From Verrucomicrobiota bacterium (GTDB lineage: Bacteria > Verrucomicrobiota > Verrucomicrobiia > Verrucomicrobiales > DEV007): a stretch of 64,000 bases of DNA. The stretch is from assembly GCA_020630975.1 (NCBI GenBank), contig JAHDID010000002.1, forward strand, positions 62,001-126,000, in the 5' to 3' direction. The translations under genes and the position numbers were made by a program. Shown here in pieces: positions 205-18,714 of this stretch. Under the pieces are notes generated by a model. That model worked only from the letters and a program-made list of their open reading frames with translations. It ran no database searches and was not told where the DNA came from. How positions within the stretch are numbered: position 1 is the first letter of the stretch; the number at the start of each line of letters is the position of its first letter.

Positions 205-351
205 TAAGCAGGCGCTGAGCGCAATGGGCTCTGGTTGGGCCGTGGGTGGAGTGAGGCAAAAAAGAGGGGAGAAAAATTTAAATTTCTGGTCCAGAGAGAC
301 TAAAAATATTTGATTTAATTAATATTTATAGAAATTTAACATTTCTTAAAT

Positions 352-2491: not shown

Positions 2492-5068
2492 TCAAGACTC
2501 TGTAGGTTTCCCCAGCTTTTCCTGCATCGCCTGATACAGCCGCTCGATCGCCTCATCCGGATCCTCTAGCATCATACTTTCTTTGATCTTGCTGGCGTAG
2601 AGCCCGAAGGCAAATGGCGTGACAGCTGGCACCTCGTGTAGCTCCCACTGCATCTCACCCACTCTACCCAAAAACTCGATGGCTCGATCGAGATCTAGAA
2701 AAGTGTGCGTGGCCTCGTGGTAGGCCTGCTCCATCAGCGGGTGATCTGGCTCATGCTCGCTGAGCACATCGAAGAGCAGATCCGAGCTCCAGCGCAGCTG
2801 ACGGACGGCGCGTTCTTTGCCAGGTAGATTGCGCGGTACCATTAGCCCTGTCTGAGCGACGCCACCGAATTGCCACTTCACCAGCTGGGCACCCTGTAGG
2901 GCGCTTTTCATATCGGCCTCGGGGGTATCGCCGGTGGTGAATAGCTCGCGCCAGGCCTCGGCTTCCATCGCTTGGAAATCTTTCAGACTGAGGAGAAAGC
3001 CGTAGTCATCGATCGTCACCAGTGCATTGCCACCCACAGCCTCACTCACACGATGGCTGATGATGCGCGATAGGGCATCATTGGCAGCACGGCCGATCAG
3101 AGAGTGGAAGAAGTAATGCACCCGCTCAGGATCATTGTCGATGTCGCGGAATTTCTCGATCAAAAAGCGCCGCTCTGTAGGAATCGCAGACAGCAGCAAC
3201 TGCGAGCGAAAGTGATCCATCACCGCAGCGGCATTGGTAGCGGAGATGTCCCACTCCTCGATCAGCCAGTCGGCGATCTCATCGGGCTCGGCCTCGTCGG
3301 CCATCATGCGATCCATCTCGGTGCGTAGGCGAGCCACCTCATTAGCGATGCCGGAGGCGAGCGGCATCTTGTTGGCATTCCACTGTGGCACGGTAGGCAG
3401 TCGGCCAGAGGCATCGGTCACTTTGATGCCGGTCAGCCCGGCTTCCTGTAGTTTCACCGTCTTTCCGCCGAGGACAAAGATGTCGCCGGGCTTCAGGTTT
3501 TTGACGAAGTTCTCCTCCACCGAGCCGAGTTTGCGGCGGTTCAGGATCACGTTCACCATGCCTTCGGAGTGGATGGTGCCGATATTGACCAGATAGTCGC
3601 GCTCGACCTTTTTGCTCACGGTGTGGTAGTGGCCATCGGCCTCGGCGATTTTGCCAAAGGTTTCGCGGTATTGCCCAGCTAGGGATTTACCGCCACCCTC
3701 TAGGTAGAGCAGGATGCGGTCGAATGTCTCGCGAGGATGATCGCGAAAGGGATAAGCCGCGGTGACTGTCTGGTAAGCCTCGTCGGCCGTCACCCCGCCA
3801 TCCATAGCCATACCGATCACGTGCTGAGCGATGGCATCGTTGCCACTGGTCAGGATATTGACGGGGTCGAGCACCCGGTCTCGGGTGAGCTGGGCGCAGA
3901 CGATGCATTCGATCAGATCGTTGATATTGGTCGCGCACAGCACCCCGTGGCTCATCTGATCGATGGAGTGGCCAGAGCGGCCGACCCGCTGCAGCGCGCG
4001 GGAGATACCCTTGGGCGTACTGACCATGATGACCGTATCGATATGGCCGATATCGATACCTAGCTCGAGCGAGGTGGAGCAGACCACAGCTCGTAGCTCG
4101 CCGAGCTTTAGCCGGTCCTCTACCTCCTGACGGATGTCGCGATCGAGCGAGGAGTGGTGGCACTCGATCTGGGCATTCAGATCGGGTAGCGCCAGCTTTA
4201 GCCGGTGCGAGATGCGCTCGGCACCAGAGCGGGTATTGGTAAAAATCAGGGTCGAACGATTTCGCTCGACGATGGCGGCCATATCTCGGATCACCCGAGT
4301 GGCGGTGTAGCCCGATGGCGGGTAGGCATGCTTGCGCAGAGGAGTGAGTACCTCGATCACCGCGCGGCGCTCGATGCGTGCCTCGGCGATGACGGGCTTT
4401 GGTCCAGAGCCACACAGGAAGTCGCCGACCACATCCAGCGGCGCGACAGTAGCCGATAGGCCGATGCGGCAGAGCGGCTTGCCTGTTTTCTGGATACGCT
4501 CGAGCCGCTCCAGTGAGATCGAGAGATGAGCGCCTCGCTTATTTTCCACAAAGGCATGCAGCTCGTCGATGATGACGAAGCGGCATCTCTCCAGCGCCTG
4601 CCGGTAGCCCGCCTGTGGTAGGATGATGGCGAGACTCTCCGGAGTGGTGATCAGGATGTGTGGCGGCTTGCGCCGCTGTTTGGCGCGCTCGTTGGCAGAG
4701 GTATCGCCAGTGCGCATACCGACGGTGATGACATCGCTCAGGCCCAGACCCTCAAGCGGGGCCTTGAGATTTTTCTCGATGTCGTAGGCGAGAGCGCGTA
4801 GTGGCGAGAGGTAGATGCACTGGATGCCGCTACTCGGCAGCGTGCCAGCCTGGTGCTCCTGAGCCAGGCGATCGATGATGCCTAGGAATCCGGCCAGCGT
4901 CTTGCCCGAGCCGGTAGGCGACGACAGCAGCACACTCTGCTGCTCGAGGATGTGAGGCACACACTTGGTCTGAGCCTCGGTAGGACCGCGAAATGTCTTC
5001 GCAAACCAATCCGCAGTGGGAGGGCTCAGCGCCTGGTAAAAGGCCTTTGTCTCGGTTTCGTTCGCCAT
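2492..5068 (-). CDS. Lhr-like DEAD/DEAH-box ATP-dependent helicase (Lhr-core)
   Basis: An 858-residue superfamily-2 helicase. Walker A is SSPTGSGKT (about 49-57), motif II is IDELH (about 167-171), motif III is GLSATV, and the second RecA-like domain carries IFTNTRSGAERISHRL, CSTSLELGIDIGHID and QRVGRSGH. The length and the long C-terminal region after the helicase core fit the Lhr-core architecture (winged helix plus Lhr-specific domains). These are 3'-5' DNA or RNA:DNA helicases linked to DNA repair. The gene is convergent with the glycosyltransferase (16 bases between stops). Its promoter region lies close to the small-RNA array on the other strand. Confidence 0.88.
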   Translation of the reverse strand: MANETETKAFYQALSPPTADWFAKTFRGPTEAQTKCVPHILEQQSVLLSSPTGSGKTLAGFLGIIDRLAQEHQAGTLPSSGIQCIYLSPLRALAYDIEKNLKAPLEGLGLSDVITVGMRTGDTSANERAKQRRKPPHILITTPESLAIILPQAGYRQALERCRFVIIDELHAFVENKRGAHLSISLERLERIQKTGKPLCRIGLSATVAPLDVVGDFLCGSGPKPVIAEARIERRAVIEVLTPLRKHAYPPSGYTATRVIRDMAAIVERNRSTLIFTNTRSGAERISHRLKLALPDLNAQIECHHSSLDRDIRQEVEDRLKLGELRAVVCSTSLELGIDIGHIDTVIMVSTPKGISRALQRVGRSGHSIDQMSHGVLCATNINDLIECIVCAQLTRDRVLDPVNILTSGNDAIAQHVIGMAMDGGVTADEAYQTVTAAYPFRDHPRETFDRILLYLEGGGKSLAGQYRETFGKIAEADGHYHTVSKKVERDYLVNIGTIHSEGMVNVILNRRKLGSVEENFVKNLKPGDIFVLGGKTVKLQEAGLTGIKVTDASGRLPTVPQWNANKMPLASGIANEVARLRTEMDRMMADEAEPDEIADWLIEEWDISATNAAAVMDHFRSQLLLSAIPTERRFLIEKFRDIDNDPERVHYFFHSLIGRAANDALSRIISHRVSEAVGGNALVTIDDYGFLLSLKDFQAMEAEAWRELFTTGDTPEADMKSALQGAQLVKWQFGGVAQTGLMVPRNLPGKERAVRQLRWSSDLLFDVLSEHEPDHPLMEQAYHEATHTFLDLDRAIEFLGRVGEMQWELHEVPAVTPFAFGLYASKIKESMMLEDPDEAIERLYQAMQEKLGKPTES

Positions 5069-5185
5069 CTTGCGCGTGTGTCAGGTAGTCTACGCGGCTC
5101 GACGGTAGTGGAAAGGAGGGATCGTGTTGGTCTTCAGCGACTTCTGTCTGGATTGCTAAAAATTTAATTTATCTTAAATATCTCG

Positions 5186-5213
5186 TTGACCAAACCAGAT
5201 AAGGGAGTATCAT
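5186..5213 (+). promoter_or_regulatory. Promoter of small RNA copy 1
   Basis: TTGACC at 5186-5191 and TATCAT at 5208-5213 are separated by 16 bases, and an AT-rich block (ATTTAATTTATCTTAAATATCTC) that could act as an UP element lies just upstream. Similar AT-rich sequence precedes the other two copies. Transcription would start near 5219-5221. Confidence 0.55.
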
Positions 5214-5218
5214 TCTGA

Positions 5219-5298
5219 AGCGGTTACTGTAACAGGTAACTGTCTGTTTGTGTTTCGTGTTTCAAAGCCGTCCAGCCTTCGGGTTGGGCGGCTTTTTA
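5219..5298 (+). ncRNA. Tandem small structured RNA, copy 1
   Basis: The copy has three parts. First is a 5' stem-loop (GTTAC 5223-5227 with GTAAC 5236-5240). Second is an unpaired conserved U/G-rich core, CTGTTTGTGTTTCGTGTTT. Third is a 14-bp 3' hairpin (5264-5294) closed by a TTCG tetraloop, with a T-run inside the descending arm and tail. All three parts recur in the same order at about 5384-5457 and 5618-5695, with base changes in the 3' hairpin that keep pairing. No convincing ORF covers it. The family is not recognised. The layout (own promoter, short transcript, intrinsic terminator) is that of a trans-acting sRNA. Confidence 0.7.
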
Positions 5299-5350
5299 CG
5301 TTTTAGGTTGAATGACTTGCGACGATATTTAACATACCTTAAATATCTCA

Positions 5351-5379
5351 TTGACTTTGCTAGCCCTCTCAGTAGGCTT
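5351..5379 (+). promoter_or_regulatory. Promoter of small RNA copy 2 (weak -10)
   Basis: TTGACT at 5351-5356 is preceded by CCTTAAATATCTCA, nearly identical to the block before copy 1. The -10 at the expected distance (TAGGCT/AGGCTT, 5373-5379) is a poor match, so this copy may be expressed less or need an activator. Confidence 0.4.
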
Positions 5380-5383
5380 ACCG

Positions 5384-5457
5384 ATAGTTACTTCTCGGTA
5401 ACTGTCTGTTTGTGTTTCGTGTTTCAGAACCGCCTGGCTCTAGCTGGGCGGTTTCTG
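5384..5457 (+). ncRNA. Tandem small structured RNA, copy 2
   Basis: The 5' stem is AGTTAC (5386-5391) with GTAACT (5398-5403) around the loop TTCTCG. The unpaired core is identical to that of copy 1. The 3' hairpin is AACCGCCTGGC paired with GCTGGGCGGTT around TCTA (11 bp with two G-U pairs). Several stem positions differ from copies 1 and 3 while pairing is kept, which points to selection on structure. The T-run after the hairpin is short (TTTCT). Confidence 0.68.
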
Positions 5458-5584
5458 CGTACAGGGGTCCCAGTCGGATCCGAATTTCGCTTTCTCAAAA
5501 GCCCGCTATTTCATCCCAAAAGCCGGAGATCAATCCGATGGTGAAGTATTTCGAAAAACTAGATAATTAATTTAACTTAATTAT

Positions 5585-5612
5585 TTGACTATCCTAAATA
5601 TCAAGGTATTAT
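5585..5612 (+). promoter_or_regulatory. Promoter of small RNA copy 3
   Basis: TTGACT at 5585-5590 and TATTAT at 5607-5612 are 16 bases apart, the best sigma-70-like match of the three. It is preceded by an AT-rich block (TTAATTTAACTTAATTA). Confidence 0.6.
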
Positions 5613-5617
5613 AAGGC

Positions 5618-5698
5618 TCAGTTACTTAACGGTAACTGTCTGTTTGTGTTTCGTGTTTTAGAGTCGTCCAGTTCTTTGAGCTGGGCGGCTCTTTACTT
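5618..5698 (+). ncRNA. Tandem small structured RNA, copy 3
   Basis: The 5' stem is CAGTTAC (5619-5625) with GTAACTG (5632-5638) around TTAACG. The core CTGTTTGTGTTTCGTGTTT is unchanged. The 3' hairpin (5660-5692) has about 15 pairs, including G-U pairs, around a short T loop and is followed by TTTACTTTT. The spacer between copies 2 and 3 is not conserved, so the conservation is confined to promoter and RNA. Confidence 0.7.
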
Positions 5699-5910
5699 TT
5701 CAGGGATCGGCTAAATTCCAACACCGTAGGACGCATCAACCTGCTCTAGCCTTCCATGCATGACTGGGAGGGGCTGTTTTTAACTGCCCGGCTACCCCAG
5801 CACGATGCCCATGGTTTACCTGGAAGACTGGGGTCTTCCTCTACTGAGATCTTCCTTACCTAAAGCGGTTAGCTCAGCGCTGTGGGCGACGAGAGACGCC
5901 GCCTCTCTTC
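5699..5910. other. Gene-free spacer with a short stem-loop
   Basis: No ORF or RNA gene is recognised here. The only clear structure is GGAAGAC (5822-5828) with GTCTTCC (5833-5839) around TGGG. It has no T-run in either direction, so it is not a standard terminator. Confidence 0.35.
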
Positions 5911-7476
5911 TTATCCGTAGATGTCAGCCTTCACTAGCTCTTCAGTGGCATCAGCTGCGGCTTTGGCGCTGACTTGAGTCAGGATCAGGCCGGCAAACTG
6001 GCCGCCTGTCTGATCGATGGCGATCCGAGTGCGGACCAAGAGCTGTTTGGAGGTCTGTGTCGAGTCTGTGCAGACGTAGGTCTCATGAGACAGCTCGGAA
6101 AGGAGGAGTGAAGTCGTGCCGGACACGATCGGTGCGCCGCTGAAGATGATGTAATCGAAGCGGCTACTCGCATCGGTGAGCATTTCCTTCATCTGAGTGC
6201 TGCGTAGCAGAGTCTCGGGCTCGGCGCTGATCTCGCCACCACCAGGGACGACCCATAGGTTTTCCACATCGGTTTTGATGGCGACATCACCTAGTGTCTT
6301 TTCACCGAGCAAATGATCGGTCAGGCCAGGTGAGGTTTCGAGTCCAAATCGCTTGTGCACGGTAGGATTCTTCAGATCTCCTTCGATGACCAGTGTCGGG
6401 TGGCCGATCGCAGCTAGGCTATGAGCTAGCTCGGTGGAGATGTACGTCATCGACTCCTCGGCCAGACAGCCTACGGTAGTGATGATGACACCCTCTGGCT
6501 GGGGGTAGGTCTCTACCAGTGCCTGACGGATCTGGAGAAAAGGCATCGGCTGGTCGGAGTAGTCAGCTTTCTCAGTCTCTGGGATCAGCACCAGATTCGG
6601 TGGGACCAGCGCTTTGGCGATATCGGCGATGGAGGACTTGCGGCGATCTTGGATGGCCCAGATCAGCACAGTGATGAGTGTCGCCAGCAGGGCTACGCCA
6701 GCAGCGGTGATCAGACCTTTAAAAACGTCGGCCTTCTCGATGACGGTACCAGGAGTCGCAGGCATGGCGATGGTAGCTGCATCACTGAGGGTACTGCGGC
6801 CGGTGTCGATATCGGCGAGACGTTTGTGAAATTCTGCGTTTCGCTCCTTTAGCTGGCGCAGTTCATCGCGCGCTTTTAGCAGCTCCTCTGGCTTGGAGCT
6901 AGAGGCGCCTAGCACTTCGAATGCCGCCAGCTTCAGTTTGGTCGAGGATTTGAAGGTATCGTGCTCGGCACGCACGGTTTTCTCCATATCATCGTAGCGA
7001 TCGCGCTGCATGCGTTTCCAGTGGTCGACATAGGCTGTAGCGATGACGTTAGCGATTTCGGCAGACTCTGTGTCGATACCTGAACGGTAGTTTATCTCGA
7101 TCTCTTGGGTGCGGCGTTTTACCGATGTGGAGCGCTTCATGCGCGATGCGGCGCGGCCATTGGAGACACCCCAGCGGCTGGCCAACCCGTTTTGCCCTGC
7201 GATCTTGGTGAGAAAAGAGTCGCTACGGATCACTTCTGCCTGTGCTTTGACCAGCGAGGGCAGTTGAAATTTCATCCCATCGCTATGAGTGGGGGCAGGG
7301 CTGGTACCTGCAGGCGGGTCCAGAGCGATTTTGGCAGTGGCCTGGTAGACGCTCGGCCAGATCATGATCGAGCAGCAGCCTAGCAGGAAAGCTCCGGCGA
7401 TGACTCCACACAATATCTTGGCTCGACCCGATGGTCGCAGCCGTTTTGACAGCTTCTGTGGTGTGTGATGTTTCAT
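5911..7476 (-). CDS. Wzz/BY-kinase-like polysaccharide co-polymerase with degenerate ATPase domain
   Basis: A 521-residue membrane protein. A first transmembrane segment (about 22-44) is followed by a Wzz-like start (VYQATAKIALDPP), a periplasmic region with coiled-coil potential (about 165-225), a second transmembrane segment (about 250-272), and a cytoplasmic domain resembling the CpsD/Wzc ATPase fold. In that domain the position of the Walker A reads TTVGCLAEESM, without the GKS/T expected in active BY-kinases, while the Walker A'-like strand (PTLVIEGDLKNPTV) is kept. The C-terminal tyrosine cluster is also absent, with only one Tyr near the end. It probably controls chain length or scaffolds export without autophosphorylation. 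The mRNA leader contains ACACAAACA 9 bases before the ATG, complementary to the core of the neighbouring small RNAs. Confidence 0.75.
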   Translation of the reverse strand: MKHHTPQKLSKRLRPSGRAKILCGVIAGAFLLGCCSIMIWPSVYQATAKIALDPPAGTSPAPTHSDGMKFQLPSLVKAQAEVIRSDSFLTKIAGQNGLASRWGVSNGRAASRMKRSTSVKRRTQEIEINYRSGIDTESAEIANVIATAYVDHWKRMQRDRYDDMEKTVRAEHDTFKSSTKLKLAAFEVLGASSSKPEELLKARDELRQLKERNAEFHKRLADIDTGRSTLSDAATIAMPATPGTVIEKADVFKGLITAAGVALLATLITVLIWAIQDRRKSSIADIAKALVPPNLVLIPETEKADYSDQPMPFLQIRQALVETYPQPEGVIITTVGCLAEESMTYISTELAHSLAAIGHPTLVIEGDLKNPTVHKRFGLETSPGLTDHLLGEKTLGDVAIKTDVENLWVVPGGGEISAEPETLLRSTQMKEMLTDASSRFDYIIFSGAPIVSGTTSLLLSELSHETYVCTDSTQTSKQLLVRTRIAIDQTGGQFAGLILTQVSAKAAADATEELVKADIYG

Positions 7477-10903: not shown

Positions 10904-13900
10904 TTACATAAGTCCAGCGAGCAAGCGGCCCACTACAGTGCCAGGTTTCGGTGTTTCGCTTTCGTCAGGAGCGATCATAGTGATCTCAAAGATCACCGAG
11001 CGACCTACACCTTTGCTATCGATCCAATCGACAAGCACCGACATGGGGTCGTAGAATGCCAGTCCCTCATCCACCCGAAAATCTAGATCGCGGGAAAATA
11101 TGTCTGCGACCGTGATCGCCCATGAGCCATCGCGTCTGGTCGGTATGATGAAGGAGCTATTCTCGGTGGCATACTGTACCCTGACCCTAGCTGATAGATC
11201 ACGGCTTGCTCCAGTCTCAAAGGGCGCATCTGCTGCATCTGTATCAGGTATGGCAGGTGTTTTTGTTCCAAACATCAATGAACCTAAGTCTAGATTGGCG
11301 ACGTCGAAGAGTGTGGTAGCTCCTGAGACTCCCAAAGAGATATCGGCAGAGTAGTCAACGGCTGCGAGATTTTGATACCCCAAGCCGGATGTGGCTGTGG
11401 AAACACCGCTAGCGATAGCCACAATAAGAGTTCCCTCAGTGGGTAGCACCTCGATGAGATAAGTACCATCGCCATTGTCAAATAGAGCAACGACTTGGCC
11501 ATTCGTCACATCTACATCATCGATAGTAAAACCACTCACTGACTCGCCAAAGTCAATAGTGAGCGTGATAGGCTCATCGGCCACGCTGGAACTAGGTCCA
11601 GATATGATGGGCGTTGGTCCGTAGTTGTCTAACAGGTAGCTCTCGGAGGTAGCGGGCGGCACAGCGGACAGCAAATTGCCAGATAGATCTGTTACTTGAT
11701 TGCCAGCTGATAGCATCAAGCCAACATCACCCTCGATATCAGCTAGGTCGCCACCCTCGACTGTCACAAGATACTCGCCCGGGGCGATCAGAGTCAGACT
11801 GGAAGGTATACCCGTCGATCCGGTCACTGCGAAATCGCTTAGACCGATAGTGCCTATTGGCTCATCGAATACCACTCGGAAAGTTAAATCATCGGCAGCC
11901 GTCAATGGTGCGGCAGGAGAAAACCTCTCGATAGCTACCACTTGGGGGGCTACCACATCTGCTACAACAAGCGAGAATGTCTGAGCAGTGGCTATACTTG
12001 AGTCTTCGTCTCCGTCTTCGACCATGACGTCGAATGCGGCAGATAGGGTGTCAGATCCGTCATGCTCGAACGATACCAGTCCATTCGCCAGATCAGCACC
12101 TGAAAATGATAGGGCAGGCACCCCTGATAGCAGTATCTGGCCATTCACAGCAGAGCTCACTGTGTAGGTGATATCTTCAGCGCTATCGTCTGGGTCTACA
12201 TGATATAAATCGCTATTGGTGATAGTGTAGCTATTTCCCTGGGCGCTGATAGTAGCTGCAAGGTCGCCAGTGAACACGGGTGCATCATTGGTGCCTGTTA
12301 GTGTGATGGTGACCGCCTGGGTGACAGATTGGCCATTCTGATCGTCAATCCTCAGCAGATAGGTCTGGGTGATGACCTGTCCCGCAGCCAAGAAATCTAG
12401 ATCCGCATCCGCCACACTAAATACCCAGTTAATCGAGCCTGCCCCATCGGTTGTGGTATTGTTGATTATGGTTGGAACTAAGGTTCCCACTATTGCTCCA
12501 GAGCCTCCATCTCTAGTGGTTGACGGGCTACCAATTATCGATACCGTTTGGGTATTGCTTAGATCGGCATCAGCCATGCTAAAGCTACCGCTATCAAATA
12601 GGGTACCACCTGCGCCCTCGGCTAAACCGCCAGACACGTCTCCACCAGCAATCACTGTAGGTGCGTCATTGGTACCTGTTATGGTTATCGCTATCATCTG
12701 GGAAGCGGTATCTGACTCATCAGGGGCACTAGAGATAGTGCCTACAGAGCTATCATCCACAGCCTCTACCTGATAGTGCAATACGAGCGTCTCGCCTGCA
12801 GCTAAAAAATCGAAAGCCGGGTCGCCTGATGTTCCTGATAGAAAATTCCAGGCGACTGTATCCCCAGTTGGCGCATTAGCATTAACTGTACCTGGCGATA
12901 GCGATAGCATAGAGAGTAGGTCGCTATCAGACAGTGGCAAATTACCCGAGAAGCTACTCGAACCATCGACCGATACGGAGGATGCCGATAGAGATACCAC
13001 ATCGGTGGTGTCGACATCTAGAACTGTTAGGTTGCCGCTGGCAGATATTGCTGCATTCGTCTCGGTGATCGCCGCGCTCGAGGCTCCTATTGGGGTGATA
13101 TCCGGAGTATCATTATTCCCCACCACCGTTACCGTTACTGTCGCCGTATCGCCTGCCATAGGTGCGACTTCGTTGTAGAAATCGGCCGAACTAATAGTGC
13201 CATCGAAATCTGAATATTGGGTGAACCTCGTGCCTGTCCCACCTGAACTACCAGACCAGGAGAGAGCGCCTAGATTCAGGTGGTCTGCAACACCGTCAAA
13301 GTGAGTTCTGCCCACGGAATACGTTTGATCGCCTAGCCAATTGGTTGAGTCGGCCCCAGAAAAGACGAATGTTTCGGTCTGTCCATCTACGATGAATCTC
13401 AATATGGGATTTCTGACGCCTGGGCTACCCGGATCGAATATGATCGATATGGTGTGTGCTCGATCTGCAACCAATGTCGATGGTGTGCCGCTGCCTGATA
13501 TGCCCGCACCATGCTGTACGGCTACAGCGTCATCTTCTGGAGCAGAGGAGTTGCTCGGTGTTAGCGTAGATGGGTTGGTATCGGTATGCCAGCCTGCATC
13601 ATAGGTTCGATCATCGAAGGTGAACGGACTAGTGGGATCATAGTAAGGTGCAGAGGTCCGGGCATCCTGAAGACTGTAGGGGCTGTTAGCACCTGTACTG
13701 CCCATTTTATTGATAAATGTAGGTACACCGTCCACGAGGTAGAGCCCAGTTCCATTGGGATGATTTCCCACATGAAATAGCACCCTCTTTGTTCCCGCTG
13801 CCACATCCTGTGCCGTCGGGGTGATGTCCATGGTAAAGGTAAATCCATTTACCGTATTTGCGGTTAGACCGCTCACCTCAGAGGCAGTAGGCCCGTTCGT

Positions 13901-16900
13901 CGAGAATAAGGCTGTACTTTGCGGCGTGATCGCACCACCTTGCCCTACTGCCACCTGGTAGGTAAACGTATCCGTCATAGACTCCCCGTCGGCTAGTGCC
14001 TGATAGCCTGCTAAGCTGGTTGCATCGTAGCTAAAAGTGCCATTGCTGTTTACGATTATCGTAGCACCATTCGCGGATGTCACACTAGCAGAGCCGCCTA
14101 CGAGTTGCGAACCCTGGGCAGATAGGATGGTGAGGGTGTCATCTGGGTCAGAGCCGTTGATATCAATTTCCACATCATTCGACAGCAGAGATGTCGCCCC
14201 TGTCAGTAGCTCGTCTTCATGGGTCGTGTAGCTATCGTCCGTTGCAGTGGCAGGATCGTCTCGGCCCTCTACAGTGATGTATACGGTAGCGGTATCACTA
14301 GCAGCCCCATCGCTGACCACATAAGTGAAGCTGTCTACCGCGCTTTCGCCAACCGCCATGGCCTGTATCACAGCGCCGGTAGTAGGATCGTAGGTGAATG
14401 TGCCGTTTGAATTTACCGTTAAAGTCGCACCAAGAGCGGAAGTCACGATTGCTGGAGATCCGCCCAACGTTGTGCCCTGTGCGCTAAATACCGTCAATGA
14501 ATCATCTGGATTATTCCCATCCACATCGATATCATTATCGTTTTCGAGTATACCATCGGCCGTAGCTGAAATATTAAGGATATTATCTTCATCAGCTAGA
14601 TAGCCAATATCATTAGTGGCGACAGGAGCATCGTTTGCACCCGTCACAGTGATAGTGACAGTACTCTCGGATAGATTGCCATTTTGAAAATTGAATCCAA
14701 CCTCCTCAGCGGACAGAGCTTTGTCGTAGATGGCAAAATCATCCATCATTCCGTAGTACGCATTACCTATTGTGAGGGAGCTCGGGTTGAGTAGAGGCGT
14801 ATTACTATCCGATCGAGAGCCTATCAGGCTACCGTTTAGGTAGATGGCGCTGTATCCTGTATTGGCATCTTTGGTAAATACGTAATGATTCCACTGACCC
14901 TCGTAGTCGCTCGGAGAGAGTAGTGCGGAGACTCGGCCGCCACCGATATCACTGTTACCGGAATCCCAATAAACGCGCCCATTGCTCCATGGCACATGAG
15001 CGAATGCGACTCGCTCTCCGCTAGGACCGGCCAACATAAAATTGGAATTTCGCGCTGGCTGCACAGCCGGATCGCCATATGCCCAAAACTCAATAGATAC
15101 CTGCTGGGTTGTCTCAATCGAGTCAAATGCCGTGTCGCCATCGACGATGCTGATCGATCCCGATGAGAAGTCTATGGCATAGTCATCAGCATTACCACTA
15201 CGGCCAGCTGCATAAGTGAGTGAGCCGGAGATGACACCCGAATTGCCATTTCCTGAAGTATCGGTCGGTGTACCACCTGCTCCCTCGGCGAACTCCCACC
15301 GACCAAGCAAGCTTGTATCGGCTACGGTGTAGGTAAAGGTGTCGATCAATGTCTCGCCCACTGACAGCGCCTGCACGGCAGCGCTGCCAGTGGGGTCGTA
15401 CTGAAAGGTTCCATCAGCATTAGCTGTGACTACCGCGCTGTGAACGCTAGCACCTGTGAGGGAGTGATTTCCTTGCACCGCAATCACTTCGCTAGTGCTA
15501 CCTTGCGGTTGCAAATCATTGGCTAGCACACTTGTCGCACCAGACTGCACGGTCAGAGATTGACCACTAGATGAGATGTTTAATACGGAATCCTCGCTTG
15601 CTTCAGCATGGTCATCCACAGCTGTTATTCCGCTTACCGTGTCGTCATTTAGGATAGTCCCGACGCCTTCGGCATCGCTAATCGAAACTGGTTGCTGTGT
15701 GGCTGTACCACCTATGTTTGACAGGTTTACAGTAAAAGTTTCATCGAGTTCGAAATCGCTATCTCCGGAAATATCGACAGATATGATCTGTTGCTCATTG
15801 GCGGTTCCATCAAATACTAAAGTGCCCGAAACCGGGGTGAAGTCGACACCACTGGTTGCAGTGCCATCTACGGTAGTGAAGTCGATGGTTAGTTGCACAG
15901 GAGCAGTCCCGTGACTTTCCACTGAAACATGCAACGTGTAGCTTTCGCCTACAGCTGGTGCATCACCGCTAATACCACCATCTGCCCCACTCGAGCTATA
16001 GGAGGCTACACCTACGATATAGGTGCCTGCCGCGAGAGTGCCTGCAGGTATGTCGAGATAGGAGGAAAAGCTACCGCTACCAGGGTCGGCGGAATCATCA
16101 TCATTCCCGTCAATGTAGGTGCCCGCAGCATCAAAAAGGAATATCTCGGTGTCGAACGTATTATCATCGATATCGAGTATCACTCGATCACCTTCACCTA
16201 TCGTAAATGCGTAATAATCGTAACTACCATCTCCTGTACCGCTGATCGAGATGTGAGGTATGCTGGTTGAGTCAGTAATATTCCCTGAAGTCACCATCGA
16301 CCAATTAGCTACGGCATCGATATTTTGCGCGGTAGCGATTGTGTCATTACCTTCCACTTCAGGTATACCATTGGTTCCGGATACAAAATCCACTGCCTGA
16401 TCCAGTGTAACAACGAATGACGCTTGGGTAGTGCCAGCATTCGTTTCAGTCACTTGTACGTCTGAGATAGAGAAATCTGGCAAATCAATCGTGAAAGTCC
16501 TAGTAAAGTCGTCGCCTGCCACTCCGTCGCCGTCGCCATCAAGGCCTGTGCCAAATGGATTGGTCAATCCTGCGGCACTGGCTCGGAACTCATAAGTACC
16601 GTCAACCAGGGCACTAGCTAGAGAGAAGTTTAGTCGATTAGTACCGATATGGTAATCAGTATCAAGTGTAAGTGTGATATCACTATCGTCTGCTGTGCCG
16701 AGTGCGCCATCGGCTCCTGCGCTGGTGAGCGTCCAGTTAGACATATCGGCTATGGTTGCTCCATCAAATATAGCGCCTAGATCGACACTGAAAGACGTGA
16801 TTAAGCTGGATGACACCGCGAGATTCGGTGGAAGATCGGTGTTGTCGATCTTCGGGGCGTCAATTGTCTCAGTCAGAGCTAAGTATGAATTAACTCTTCC

Positions 16901-18550
16901 TGATCCCAGTTCGCCTGCATAGGCAGGATTCAAGGCGTCGATATCCTCAGCCGTGCCGAGTAATTGGGCAGCCACTTGATCTCTGGTCCAGGTTGGATTC
17001 TGTGACCAGATCAGCGCTGCTACTGCTGCTGCATTGGGTGCAGCCATGCTAGTTCCACTCTTAGTGCCATAGTTGTCACCTGGTAATGTTGAAAGCACGC
17101 CTGAGCCAGGTGCTGATACATCAATACCGTAGCCGTAGTTACTATAGCCGGCACGAGTGTCAGAACTGGTAGTCGCCGCTACGAATATGGTCTCATGGAT
17201 ACCCTGGCGTAACGGTTCTTGCTCGTTATTATTTCCTGCAGAATTAATATGCAAAACCCCAGCATCATACATATAGGATAACCCCGCACGGAAGGTGTTA
17301 CTATTAACTCTTGAGTCGATACCATAGCTTAGATTAAGGATATTGGCACCATTGTCAGCGGCGTAAGTAAATGCCTCTGCATAAATCGATGCAGTCGGCG
17401 CAAAGATTCGCAGAGGCATGATTTGCACTCCAGCCGTCGTAGCACCTCCACCAGCAGTCCCTGCTATACCAATGCCGTTATTAGTGACAGCGCCGATAAT
17501 GCCAGCCACATGAGTACCATGGCTATCACTACCTTCTTCATCAGGATTATTATCATCGTCATAGAAATCCCACCCCCTAATATCGTCGACGTAGCCATTA
17601 CCATCGTCATCCACATTATTCCCGGCGATCTCTCCACTATTGGTCCAGATATTTGCTGTGAGATCTTCATGATCCCAGTCAACCCCAGTATCGGCTACTG
17701 CTACAACGATATTCGGTGTTCCGCCATTAATGTCCCAAGCCCCTTCGTTGTTCATTACCCCACTGGGGTGATGGTATTGAGAGGTGAACTGTGGATCGTT
17801 AGGGACAAACTCTGGTAGTTTGATATCCTCGTAAACAAAGTTTGGCTCAGCCCACTGGATGAAATTAGTCAATTCGAGATGATTGATCATCTCGTCGACA
17901 TTGCCTCTCTCTGTGAGGCTTAGCAGGACTATCGTTAATTCACCTGTATCTAAGATAGTTTTTGATGAACTTAGATCGACCAAGTCGCCCAGATTAGCTC
18001 CATCTCCGGTAGTGAAGTACTGGCTTAGTTGACTCAAAGGATCTGAACCTAGGATGCCAACCATGACTTCAGTAGTGGTGTATAGATAGGTATCGCCATC
18101 CTCAGTCTCACCTACTGCTACATCGATATTTTCATAGCGGTCGATATCTAAGCCATTACCAATATTTTCGCCAGAGAAGAGTGGGTCCGTAGCAAGTCCG
18201 CCGTCTCCATCCCATCTCGGCGCTTCATTCAGTCCGTCGATGCTTTCAATGTGATCGACGGTATCGTTGGCTCGCCATGCATCAAAAGCTTCGGTGTCAT
18301 CTTTTGTGAAATCTGCGATTAGACCAGATTCGTAACTGGCACCACCGTAGCCAGGCATTGATTCCAGTGTGTCAAAATCTATGGAGGGTTGAGATTCCGC
18401 GATGACTTCCTGAGCGGGATTATCGTCAGCGATTGGCGCTGCAGAATACATAATCCTCGATTCAAGAGCTTCAGCGAGGTAGGCACGATCTTCAGTGAAA
18501 GAATCACCAGCAGAGCGCTCTTTTGGAGATTGACGTTTCCAGAGTTTCAT
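10904..18550 (-). CDS. Giant secreted subtilase (S8) with Calx-beta, PPC, LamG and VCBS/cadherin-like repeats
   Basis: A protein of about 2,548 residues. The start is set at MKLWKRQSPK (18548-18550); 41 codons upstream are also open but look non-coding. The N-terminus has LAEALESRIMYSAAP, an LEPR-like motif seen on giant surface proteins of Planctomycetes and Verrucomicrobia. The S8 protease domain has Asp in ADTGVDW (about 286), His in DSHGTHVAG (about 345) and Ser in GTSMAAP (about 500). Then follow a PPC/Calx-beta region (PEVEGNDTIATAQN, then ESHGTAPVQLTIDF), a LamG/concanavalin-like domain (LLGRWEFAEGAGG), and many repeats of the form VTGTNDAPV typical of VCBS/cadherin-like modules. It is probably an extracellular or surface protease-adhesin. 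Confidence 0.85.
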   Translation of the reverse strand: MKLWKRQSPKERSAGDSFTEDRAYLAEALESRIMYSAAPIADDNPAQEVIAESQPSIDFDTLESMPGYGGASYESGLIADFTKDDTEAFDAWRANDTVDHIESIDGLNEAPRWDGDGGLATDPLFSGENIGNGLDIDRYENIDVAVGETEDGDTYLYTTTEVMVGILGSDPLSQLSQYFTTGDGANLGDLVDLSSSKTILDTGELTIVLLSLTERGNVDEMINHLELTNFIQWAEPNFVYEDIKLPEFVPNDPQFTSQYHHPSGVMNNEGAWDINGGTPNIVVAVADTGVDWDHEDLTANIWTNSGEIAGNNVDDDGNGYVDDIRGWDFYDDDNNPDEEGSDSHGTHVAGIIGAVTNNGIGIAGTAGGGATTAGVQIMPLRIFAPTASIYAEAFTYAADNGANILNLSYGIDSRVNSNTFRAGLSYMYDAGVLHINSAGNNNEQEPLRQGIHETIFVAATTSSDTRAGYSNYGYGIDVSAPGSGVLSTLPGDNYGTKSGTSMAAPNAAAVAALIWSQNPTWTRDQVAAQLLGTAEDIDALNPAYAGELGSGRVNSYLALTETIDAPKIDNTDLPPNLAVSSSLITSFSVDLGAIFDGATIADMSNWTLTSAGADGALGTADDSDITLTLDTDYHIGTNRLNFSLASALVDGTYEFRASAAGLTNPFGTGLDGDGDGVAGDDFTRTFTIDLPDFSISDVQVTETNAGTTQASFVVTLDQAVDFVSGTNGIPEVEGNDTIATAQNIDAVANWSMVTSGNITDSTSIPHISISGTGDGSYDYYAFTIGEGDRVILDIDDNTFDTEIFLFDAAGTYIDGNDDDSADPGSGSFSSYLDIPAGTLAAGTYIVGVASYSSSGADGGISGDAPAVGESYTLHVSVESHGTAPVQLTIDFTTVDGTATSGVDFTPVSGTLVFDGTANEQQIISVDISGDSDFELDETFTVNLSNIGGTATQQPVSISDAEGVGTILNDDTVSGITAVDDHAEASEDSVLNISSSGQSLTVQSGATSVLANDLQPQGSTSEVIAVQGNHSLTGASVHSAVVTANADGTFQYDPTGSAAVQALSVGETLIDTFTYTVADTSLLGRWEFAEGAGGTPTDTSGNGNSGVISGSLTYAAGRSGNADDYAIDFSSGSISIVDGDTAFDSIETTQQVSIEFWAYGDPAVQPARNSNFMLAGPSGERVAFAHVPWSNGRVYWDSGNSDIGGGRVSALLSPSDYEGQWNHYVFTKDANTGYSAIYLNGSLIGSRSDSNTPLLNPSSLTIGNAYYGMMDDFAIYDKALSAEEVGFNFQNGNLSESTVTITVTGANDAPVATNDIGYLADEDNILNISATADGILENDNDIDVDGNNPDDSLTVFSAQGTTLGGSPAIVTSALGATLTVNSNGTFTYDPTTGAVIQAMAVGESAVDSFTYVVSDGAASDTATVYITVEGRDDPATATDDSYTTHEDELLTGATSLLSNDVEIDINGSDPDDTLTILSAQGSQLVGGSASVTSANGATIIVNSNGTFSYDATSLAGYQALADGESMTDTFTYQVAVGQGGAITPQSTALFSTNGPTASEVSGLTANTVNGFTFTMDITPTAQDVAAGTKRVLFHVGNHPNGTGLYLVDGVPTFINKMGSTGANSPYSLQDARTSAPYYDPTSPFTFDDRTYDAGWHTDTNPSTLTPSNSSAPEDDAVAVQHGAGISGSGTPSTLVADRAHTISIIFDPGSPGVRNPILRFIVDGQTETFVFSGADSTNWLGDQTYSVGRTHFDGVADHLNLGALSWSGSSGGTGTRFTQYSDFDGTISSADFYNEVAPMAGDTATVTVTVVGNNDTPDITPIGASSAAITETNAAISASGNLTVLDVDTTDVVSLSASSVSVDGSSSFSGNLPLSDSDLLSMLSLSPGTVNANAPTGDTVAWNFLSGTSGDPAFDFLAAGETLVLHYQVEAVDDSSVGTISSAPDESDTASQMIAITITGTNDAPTVIAGGDVSGGLAEGAGGTLFDSGSFSMADADLSNTQTVSIIGSPSTTRDGGSGAIVGTLVPTIINNTTTDGAGSINWVFSVADADLDFLAAGQVITQTYLLRIDDQNGQSVTQAVTITLTGTNDAPVFTGDLAATISAQGNSYTITNSDLYHVDPDDSAEDITYTVSSAVNGQILLSGVPALSFSGADLANGLVSFEHDGSDTLSAAFDVMVEDGDEDSSIATAQTFSLVVADVVAPQVVAIERFSPAAPLTAADDLTFRVVFDEPIGTIGLSDFAVTGSTGIPSSLTLIAPGEYLVTVEGGDLADIEGDVGLMLSAGNQVTDLSGNLLSAVPPATSESYLLDNYGPTPIISGPSSSVADEPITLTIDFGESVSGFTIDDVDVTNGQVVALFDNGDGTYLIEVLPTEGTLIVAIASGVSTATSGLGYQNLAAVDYSADISLGVSGATTLFDVANLDLGSLMFGTKTPAIPDTDAADAPFETGASRDLSARVRVQYATENSSFIIPTRRDGSWAITVADIFSRDLDFRVDEGLAFYDPMSVLVDWIDSKGVGRSVIFEITMIAPDESETPKPGTVVGRLLAGLM

Positions 18551-18714
18551 AGTTAAAGGGAATAGACTGTGGGCGGTGCTTTTTCGGCTAGGTGACGCTT
18601 CAAAACAACTAAAATCTTGGACTACCCCACCATTAAATGCCCTGTTCTCAGGGACTGGCTCTACGATTATCAAAATAGCGTTGACGACATTACGTCAACC
18701 TCCATTGACGGATC

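Follow-up and report, generated by a model that had tools for sequence, protein, structure and literature searches.

Three tandem copies of a small RNA gene, very probably of a new family, in an uncultured family of Verrucomicrobiales

What is encoded by an intergenic region in which one structured unit is written three times in succession? Few families of small RNAs (sRNAs) are known in the Planctomycetes-Verrucomicrobia-Chlamydiae group, and a survey based on Rfam lists eight distinct ones (PMC9029176). The window, a 64,000-nt stretch of a Verrucomicrobiota genome (designated G000; contig C129, positions 62001-126000), contains such a region between an lhr-like helicase gene and a Wzc-like kinase gene, where all three G000 copies lie. 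A reading made from the letters of the window alone (the sequence-only reading) took the units for redundant copies of a trans-acting sRNA. The analysis below supports a regulatory sRNA as the kind of element, and we infer its action in trans from sequence.

The array and its promoters

A repeat search finds three in-register copies of a 56-nt unit, at 5224, 5386 and 5620 (spacings of 162 and 234), and likewise three copies of an AT-rich block ahead of the units, just as the sequence-only reading had described. Each unit is about 85 nt long: a TTGAC/-10 promoter is followed by a 5' hairpin and then by an unpaired core that is fixed (CUGUUUGUGUUUCGUGUUU), and an intrinsic terminator closes the unit. 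The cores start at 5244, 5406 and 5640 (Table 1). The core had been called identical in the three copies, and it is: a search of the 7.1-Mb genome finds the exact 19-nt sequence three times, each time within the array, and the reversed core, used as a control against the same genome, gives zero matches. The base that follows the core is C in copies 1 and 2 and T in copy 3. The 5' stem previously given for all units, AGTTAC/GTAACT, is that of copies 2 and 3, whereas copy 1 has GGTTAC/GTAACT. Fold stability exceeds that of shuffled sequences in all three copies (z of -5.9, -5.0 and -6.4); for copy 1 only, the minimum-energy model gives a different fold of the 5' part.

A promoter and an intrinsic terminator of its own had been assigned to every unit, and scans bear this out for copies 1 and 3. 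Their terminators are called as stems of 14 and 15 pairs followed by T-rich tails, and theirs are the two promoters found by the promoter scan, against 0.8 expected. Copy 2 has the weakest promoter and terminator signals of the three: its promoter, with a -10 of TAGGCT, is missed by the promoter scan, and its terminator stem (5426-5456) is visible in the fold and followed by a poor T-tract. Elsewhere in the window, on the minus strand at 10904-18673, a predicted protein of 2,589 aa reads as subtilase-like with repeated cadherin-like sequence.

Table 1. Positions in the window of the elements of the array and of the flanking genes
Feature	Position	Strand	Basis
Copy 1 AT-rich dyad ATTTAA-N6-TTAAAT(ATC), directly upstream of -35	5162..5182	+	sequence comparison
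Copy 1 promoter TTGACC-16-TATCAT	5186..5213	+	scan; position kept in homologues
Copy 1 5' hairpin CGGTTAC..GTAACTG; predicted RNA 5' end	5221..5242	+	alignment
Copy 1 unpaired core CTGTTTGTGTTTCGTGTTT	5244..5262	+	exact-core search
Copy 1 intrinsic terminator (stem 5264-5295 and T-rich tail)	5264..5305	+	fold, scan
Copy 2 perfect dyad GATATTTAA-N6-TTAAATATC	5324..5347	+	
Copy 2 promoter TTGACT-16-TAGGCT	5351..5378	+	sequence, alignment, pattern scan
Copy 2 5' hairpin	5383..5405	+	fold
Copy 2 unpaired core	5406..5424	+	exact-core search
Copy 2 terminator stem, weak T-tract	5426..5460	+	fold
Copy 3 imperfect dyad GATAATTAA-N6-TTAATTATT	5562..5585	+	
Copy 3 promoter TTGACT-16-TATTAT; spacer retains degenerate CTAAATATC half-site	5585..5612	+	scan
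Copy 3 5' hairpin CAGTTAC..GTAACTG	5619..5638	+	fold, scan
Copy 3 unpaired core	5640..5658	+	exact-core search
Copy 3 intrinsic terminator (stem 5660-5692 and tail)	5660..5700	+	fold, scan
lhr-like DEAD/H helicase gene, divergent from array (context only)	2492..5068	-	
Wzc/CapB-like exopolysaccharide kinase gene, convergent with array (context only)	5911..7476	-	

The promoters share more than their -35 element. Of 54 distinct promoters, 50 contain TTGAC and 36 have the dyad TTGA-N6-TTAA, which takes in the -35 element; at other spacings the count is 0-3. A fuller dyad, ATTTAA-N6-TTAAAT, lies directly upstream of the -35 element in copies 1 and 2, and copy 3 carries a variant. Across 1.9 Mb of G000, TTTAA-N6-TTAAA is found nine times at a spacing of 6 versus 0-4 times at others; further sites precede a methyltransferase/glycosyltransferase pair near the beginning of the window and genes that read as encoding exported proteins. 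The shared dyads suggest that one transcription factor may act at these promoters, which are themselves related by descent; such a dyad-binding factor would set transcription at the sRNA promoter. Two sites can be described in more detail. At window positions 334-351 (C129:62334), upstream of methyltransferase/glycosyltransferase genes (428-2475), the dyad ATTTAACATTTCTTAAAT is of the same class as those of copies 1 and 2, and a single regulon is possible. At G000 C39:66881, an HD-domain phosphodiesterase-like gene is preceded by CTTAAATATC, a -10 similar to TATTAT and a leader that opens with CAGTTACGCAAGTGAC, a hairpin that resembles the one at the 5' end of the sRNA.

Structure and distribution of the RNA

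The sequence-only reading did not recognise the family, and Rfam 15 agrees: at the gathering-score threshold the window has zero matches, the best sub-threshold matches (E 1.5-8.4) being far under the gathering scores. In the Verrucomicrobiales family to which the host belongs, 56 of the 75 genomes searched, representing 15 of 18 genera, have homologues, counting together the exact genus core, matches to a covariance model (R1) at E < 1e-3 and an exact A-type core. Within the genus, 27 of 34 genomes have the exact genus core, which also occurs in two other genera. None of the 214 other genomes searched in the order contains the exact A-type core, and in 388 genomes of the phylum a model, R2, gives only weak matches outside the family (best E 7e-4). 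These weak matches, including Akkermansia-like ones, were set aside, as on inspection they look like unrelated ends of genes or tRNAs followed by terminators. Some same-genus metagenome-assembled genomes have no copy, in part because contigs end at the RNA (a G014 contig ends inside the sRNA promoter), and copies may be missed in short-read assemblies. Among the contigs concerned (L378 1-61, L380 and L381), those of G025 and G014 stop at the sRNA or at its promoter, and that of G017 stops within the neighbouring transpeptidase gene. The units most likely encode regulatory RNAs of an undescribed family, conserved within a single uncultured family of Verrucomicrobiales bacteria.

The genus consensus RNA is GGUUACUUUCUCGGUAACUGUCUGUUUGUGUUUCGUGUUUCGGAGCCGCUCAGCCUUCGGGCUGAGCGGUUUCU followed by a U-rich tail. 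Rows of the genus alignment were picked by the core, so that invariance of the core there is by construction. Model R1 finds homologues without requiring an exact core; in the diverged homologues that it finds, GUUUGUGUUUC is retained in every row of alignment A4, and the core differs mainly by U for C just ahead of GUUUGUGUUUC and by A for G in C[A/G]UGUUU. Across genera, the core GUUUGUGUUUC[A/G]UGUUU is nearly unchanging, and the contrast drawn from the three copies between a fixed unpaired core and freely varying loops is true across 15 genera.

The three copies had also been read as evidence of selection on RNA structure, and the covariation found in homologues upholds this. Within the genus, 13 of the 15 pairs of the terminator have changed on both sides, while the 5' hairpin hardly varies. 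Between genera, 20 of 22 pairs show two-sided changes, five of them in the 5' hairpin; 94.2% of the cells in this comparison pair, whereas shuffling gives 80.3% and sliding the partners no more than 48%. In three genomes of genus g18 (L341-L343), the 5' hairpin is of another type, AGCTGC/GCGGCT, which still pairs and is accompanied by the same core. Covariation in the 5' hairpin is the more telling, since any terminator can be expected to show covariation of its own. In most relatives the -35 element sits 34-37 nt ahead of the GTTAC of the hairpin (at three distances of 25, the script took a later TTGA), and transcription would thus be expected to start close to the base of the hairpin. The predicted RNA is most likely about 80 nt long, with a hairpin, an unpaired GU-rich core of about 20 nt and a terminator hairpin.

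These features speak against a short protein-coding gene. A 98-codon ORF with a TTG start (5248-5544) overlaps copies 1 and 2, probably by chance; however, the core has no ATG in the genus, the terminator stems after the core vary in length as well as sequence, and the variation keeps pairing rather than a reading frame. A coding role is thus scarcely credible. An intergenic unit with its own promoter and intrinsic terminator, compensatory changes and a conserved unpaired segment is very probably, as judged from these sequence features, an independently transcribed sRNA of a known kind and a new family.

In most relatives a single copy is present, and the triplication that was read as redundancy is peculiar to the lineage of the window. 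In many relatives the RNA is divergent from a gene pair, which from reading the sequences we take to be a YkuD-like L,D-transpeptidase lipoprotein gene and ispH, and has a convergent gene downstream; identification of the pair as a two-component system was dropped on the same reading. Downstream genes are mostly convergent, and thus the RNA stands alone; their identity varies between genomes. A structured region followed by a terminator is also what a cis-acting leader or attenuator of a downstream gene would look like. This explanation is largely refuted, and we consider it very improbable: the kinase gene of the window is convergent with the array, so the array RNAs are not its leaders, the downstream gene in many relatives is likewise convergent and differs between genomes, and three complete promoter-terminator units in series would be senseless as leaders.

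The transpeptidase gene of G000 lies on contig C104 with no RNA beside it. With the usual site empty and the copies elsewhere, the array is probably a relocated and expanded form of a normally single gene. Location and number have changed in some lineages: the three G000 copies occupy a new site; G025 has at least two, one at the usual place and a second cut by a contig end; and G020 has a second copy that is probably decayed. Such changes could point to a mobile or phage-borne repeat that has no cellular role. However, the RNA is usually single-copy at a fixed locus, and the 14 core matches in viral contigs, about the chance level, have no credible hairpin or terminator, which makes this origin highly unlikely. 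The second G020 copy (L112 3064-3152) keeps the promoter, the 5' hairpin and CTGTTTG and then diverges, and is probably decaying; in G040 (L111 5031-5131), TTTGTTGTGTGTTTTGTGTTTCC with a different hairpin is a possible distant paralogue.

Possible modes of action

The best explanation of the whole, in which we place somewhat better than even confidence, is that the units are complete sRNA genes whose RNAs act in trans through pairing of the core near translation starts, possibly with the help of an RRM-type protein. A σ70-type promoter would start transcription at the base of the 5' hairpin. The core would then pair near the start codons of several mRNAs, most plausibly those for envelope or exported proteins, and lower their translation. 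Since the cores are identical, three copies would raise the dosage of the RNA rather than provide new specificities. An Hfq-dependent sRNA presupposes a host that encodes Hfq, and no match to PF17209 was found in G000 (about 96% complete) by a search that was positive in five control genomes. For this reason an RRM-type protein, of which G000 encodes three (RRM_1), is proposed as a factor that may assist or compete with the core.

Target tests covered 1.9 Mb of G000, with genes from a home-made caller whose starts are imperfect. At the start regions of 1,309 predicted genes, total predicted pairing is not above that of dinucleotide-shuffled cores, and exact seeds of 9-10 nt show a marginal excess. 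Genes for exported proteins with duplexes of -16 kcal/mol or below number 31, compared with 21.9 ± 4.3 for shuffled cores; in this post hoc test the count is matched by 1 of 80 shuffles, and at other thresholds by 3 to 17 of 80. Seed sites upstream of starts recur at genes that read as secretin-like in three genomes and at the orthologous L431 and L436 in two, which provides a lead; the G000 orthologue of the latter pair has only a weak site.

Several candidates were rejected. A 16-nt perfect complement (duplex -26.1 kcal/mol) lies directly upstream of the start of a 116-aa ORF in G000 that has no Pfam match; as a conserved target it was discarded, its orthologues lacking the site. Seed plus ATG occurs 80 times versus 46 for one shuffled seed in a genus-wide count, a difference that largely reflects the greater overall frequency of the real seed (in the analysed part of G000). 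The MKHK start (ATGAAGCACAAA) of the neighbouring transpeptidase in G025 is absent from most other orthologues. Overall, the target evidence is weak.

The main rival, unlikely in our judgement, is that the GU-rich core is held single-stranded between hairpins as a ligand for an RRM-type protein, which the copies would titrate. The core is near-invariant over 15 genera while the rest of the RNA turns over, it contains UGU repeats (in diverged homologues, UGUUUGUUUGUGUUUC), the search for antisense targets yielded no conserved ones, and G000 combines three RRM_1 proteins with no detectable Hfq. In Bacteroides, moreover, single-stranded parts of a multicopy family of sRNAs are binding sites for the RRM protein RbpB (PMC11697453). 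The RRMs of eukaryotic CELF1 bind UGU-Nx-UGU-Ny-UGU (PMC3737555), and the resemblance of the core to this motif is a lead only. It is distinctly improbable that the core would be a bacterial counterpart of the eukaryotic RRM-bound GU-rich elements, with RRM capture as its sole function and copy number tuning the free protein. Against a ligand, a core that only bound protein need not keep 11 contiguous invariant bases, and the sRNAs to which RbpB binds also base-pair with mRNAs. The reading that we prefer remains pairing of the core with mRNAs, in which an RRM-type protein may take part.

Comparison with known systems

The family spans at least 15 genera of one bacterial family, and a covariance model for it is ready. 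Its host, with RRM proteins and no detectable Hfq, makes sRNA action that does not involve Hfq testable in another phylum, and the lineage-specific change from one copy to three offers a natural case of altered sRNA dosage.

The nearest worked-out parallel is the FopS/GibS and RbpB system of Bacteroides (PMC11697453). FopS RNAs are about 65-70 nt long, mostly intergenic and multicopy, and combine a single-stranded part that is conserved with an intrinsic terminator; they are associated with an RRM-1 protein and repress translation by pairing near the start codons of outer-membrane transporter genes, and their structure is stated to be deposited in Rfam (PMC11697453). The RNA described here is similar in its conserved single-stranded part, intrinsic terminator and several copies, and in a host that has RRM proteins and no detectable Hfq. 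It differs in sequence and phylum, in having its core flanked by two hairpins instead of placed at the 5' end, and in tandem copies as opposed to the 12-15 per genome of FopS; its protein partner and targets are putative.

LhrC of Listeria provides a second parallel. Its near-identical siblings, four of which share an intergenic region, carry a conserved motif that pairs near ribosome-binding sites; most known targets are surface proteins, and the functions characterised earlier are independent of Hfq (PMC13350326). Near-identical siblings within one intergenic region are common to both systems, but LhrC motifs are CU-rich and target ribosome-binding sites, and structure and phylum differ. Finally, OmrA/OmrB, AbcR1/2 and PrrF1/2 are sibling sRNAs that are tandem duplicates in some species (PMC4211561). 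They resemble the present copies in having near-identical stretches within an otherwise diverged sequence; however, they are proteobacterial and unrelated in sequence, and OmrA/OmrB interact with Hfq.
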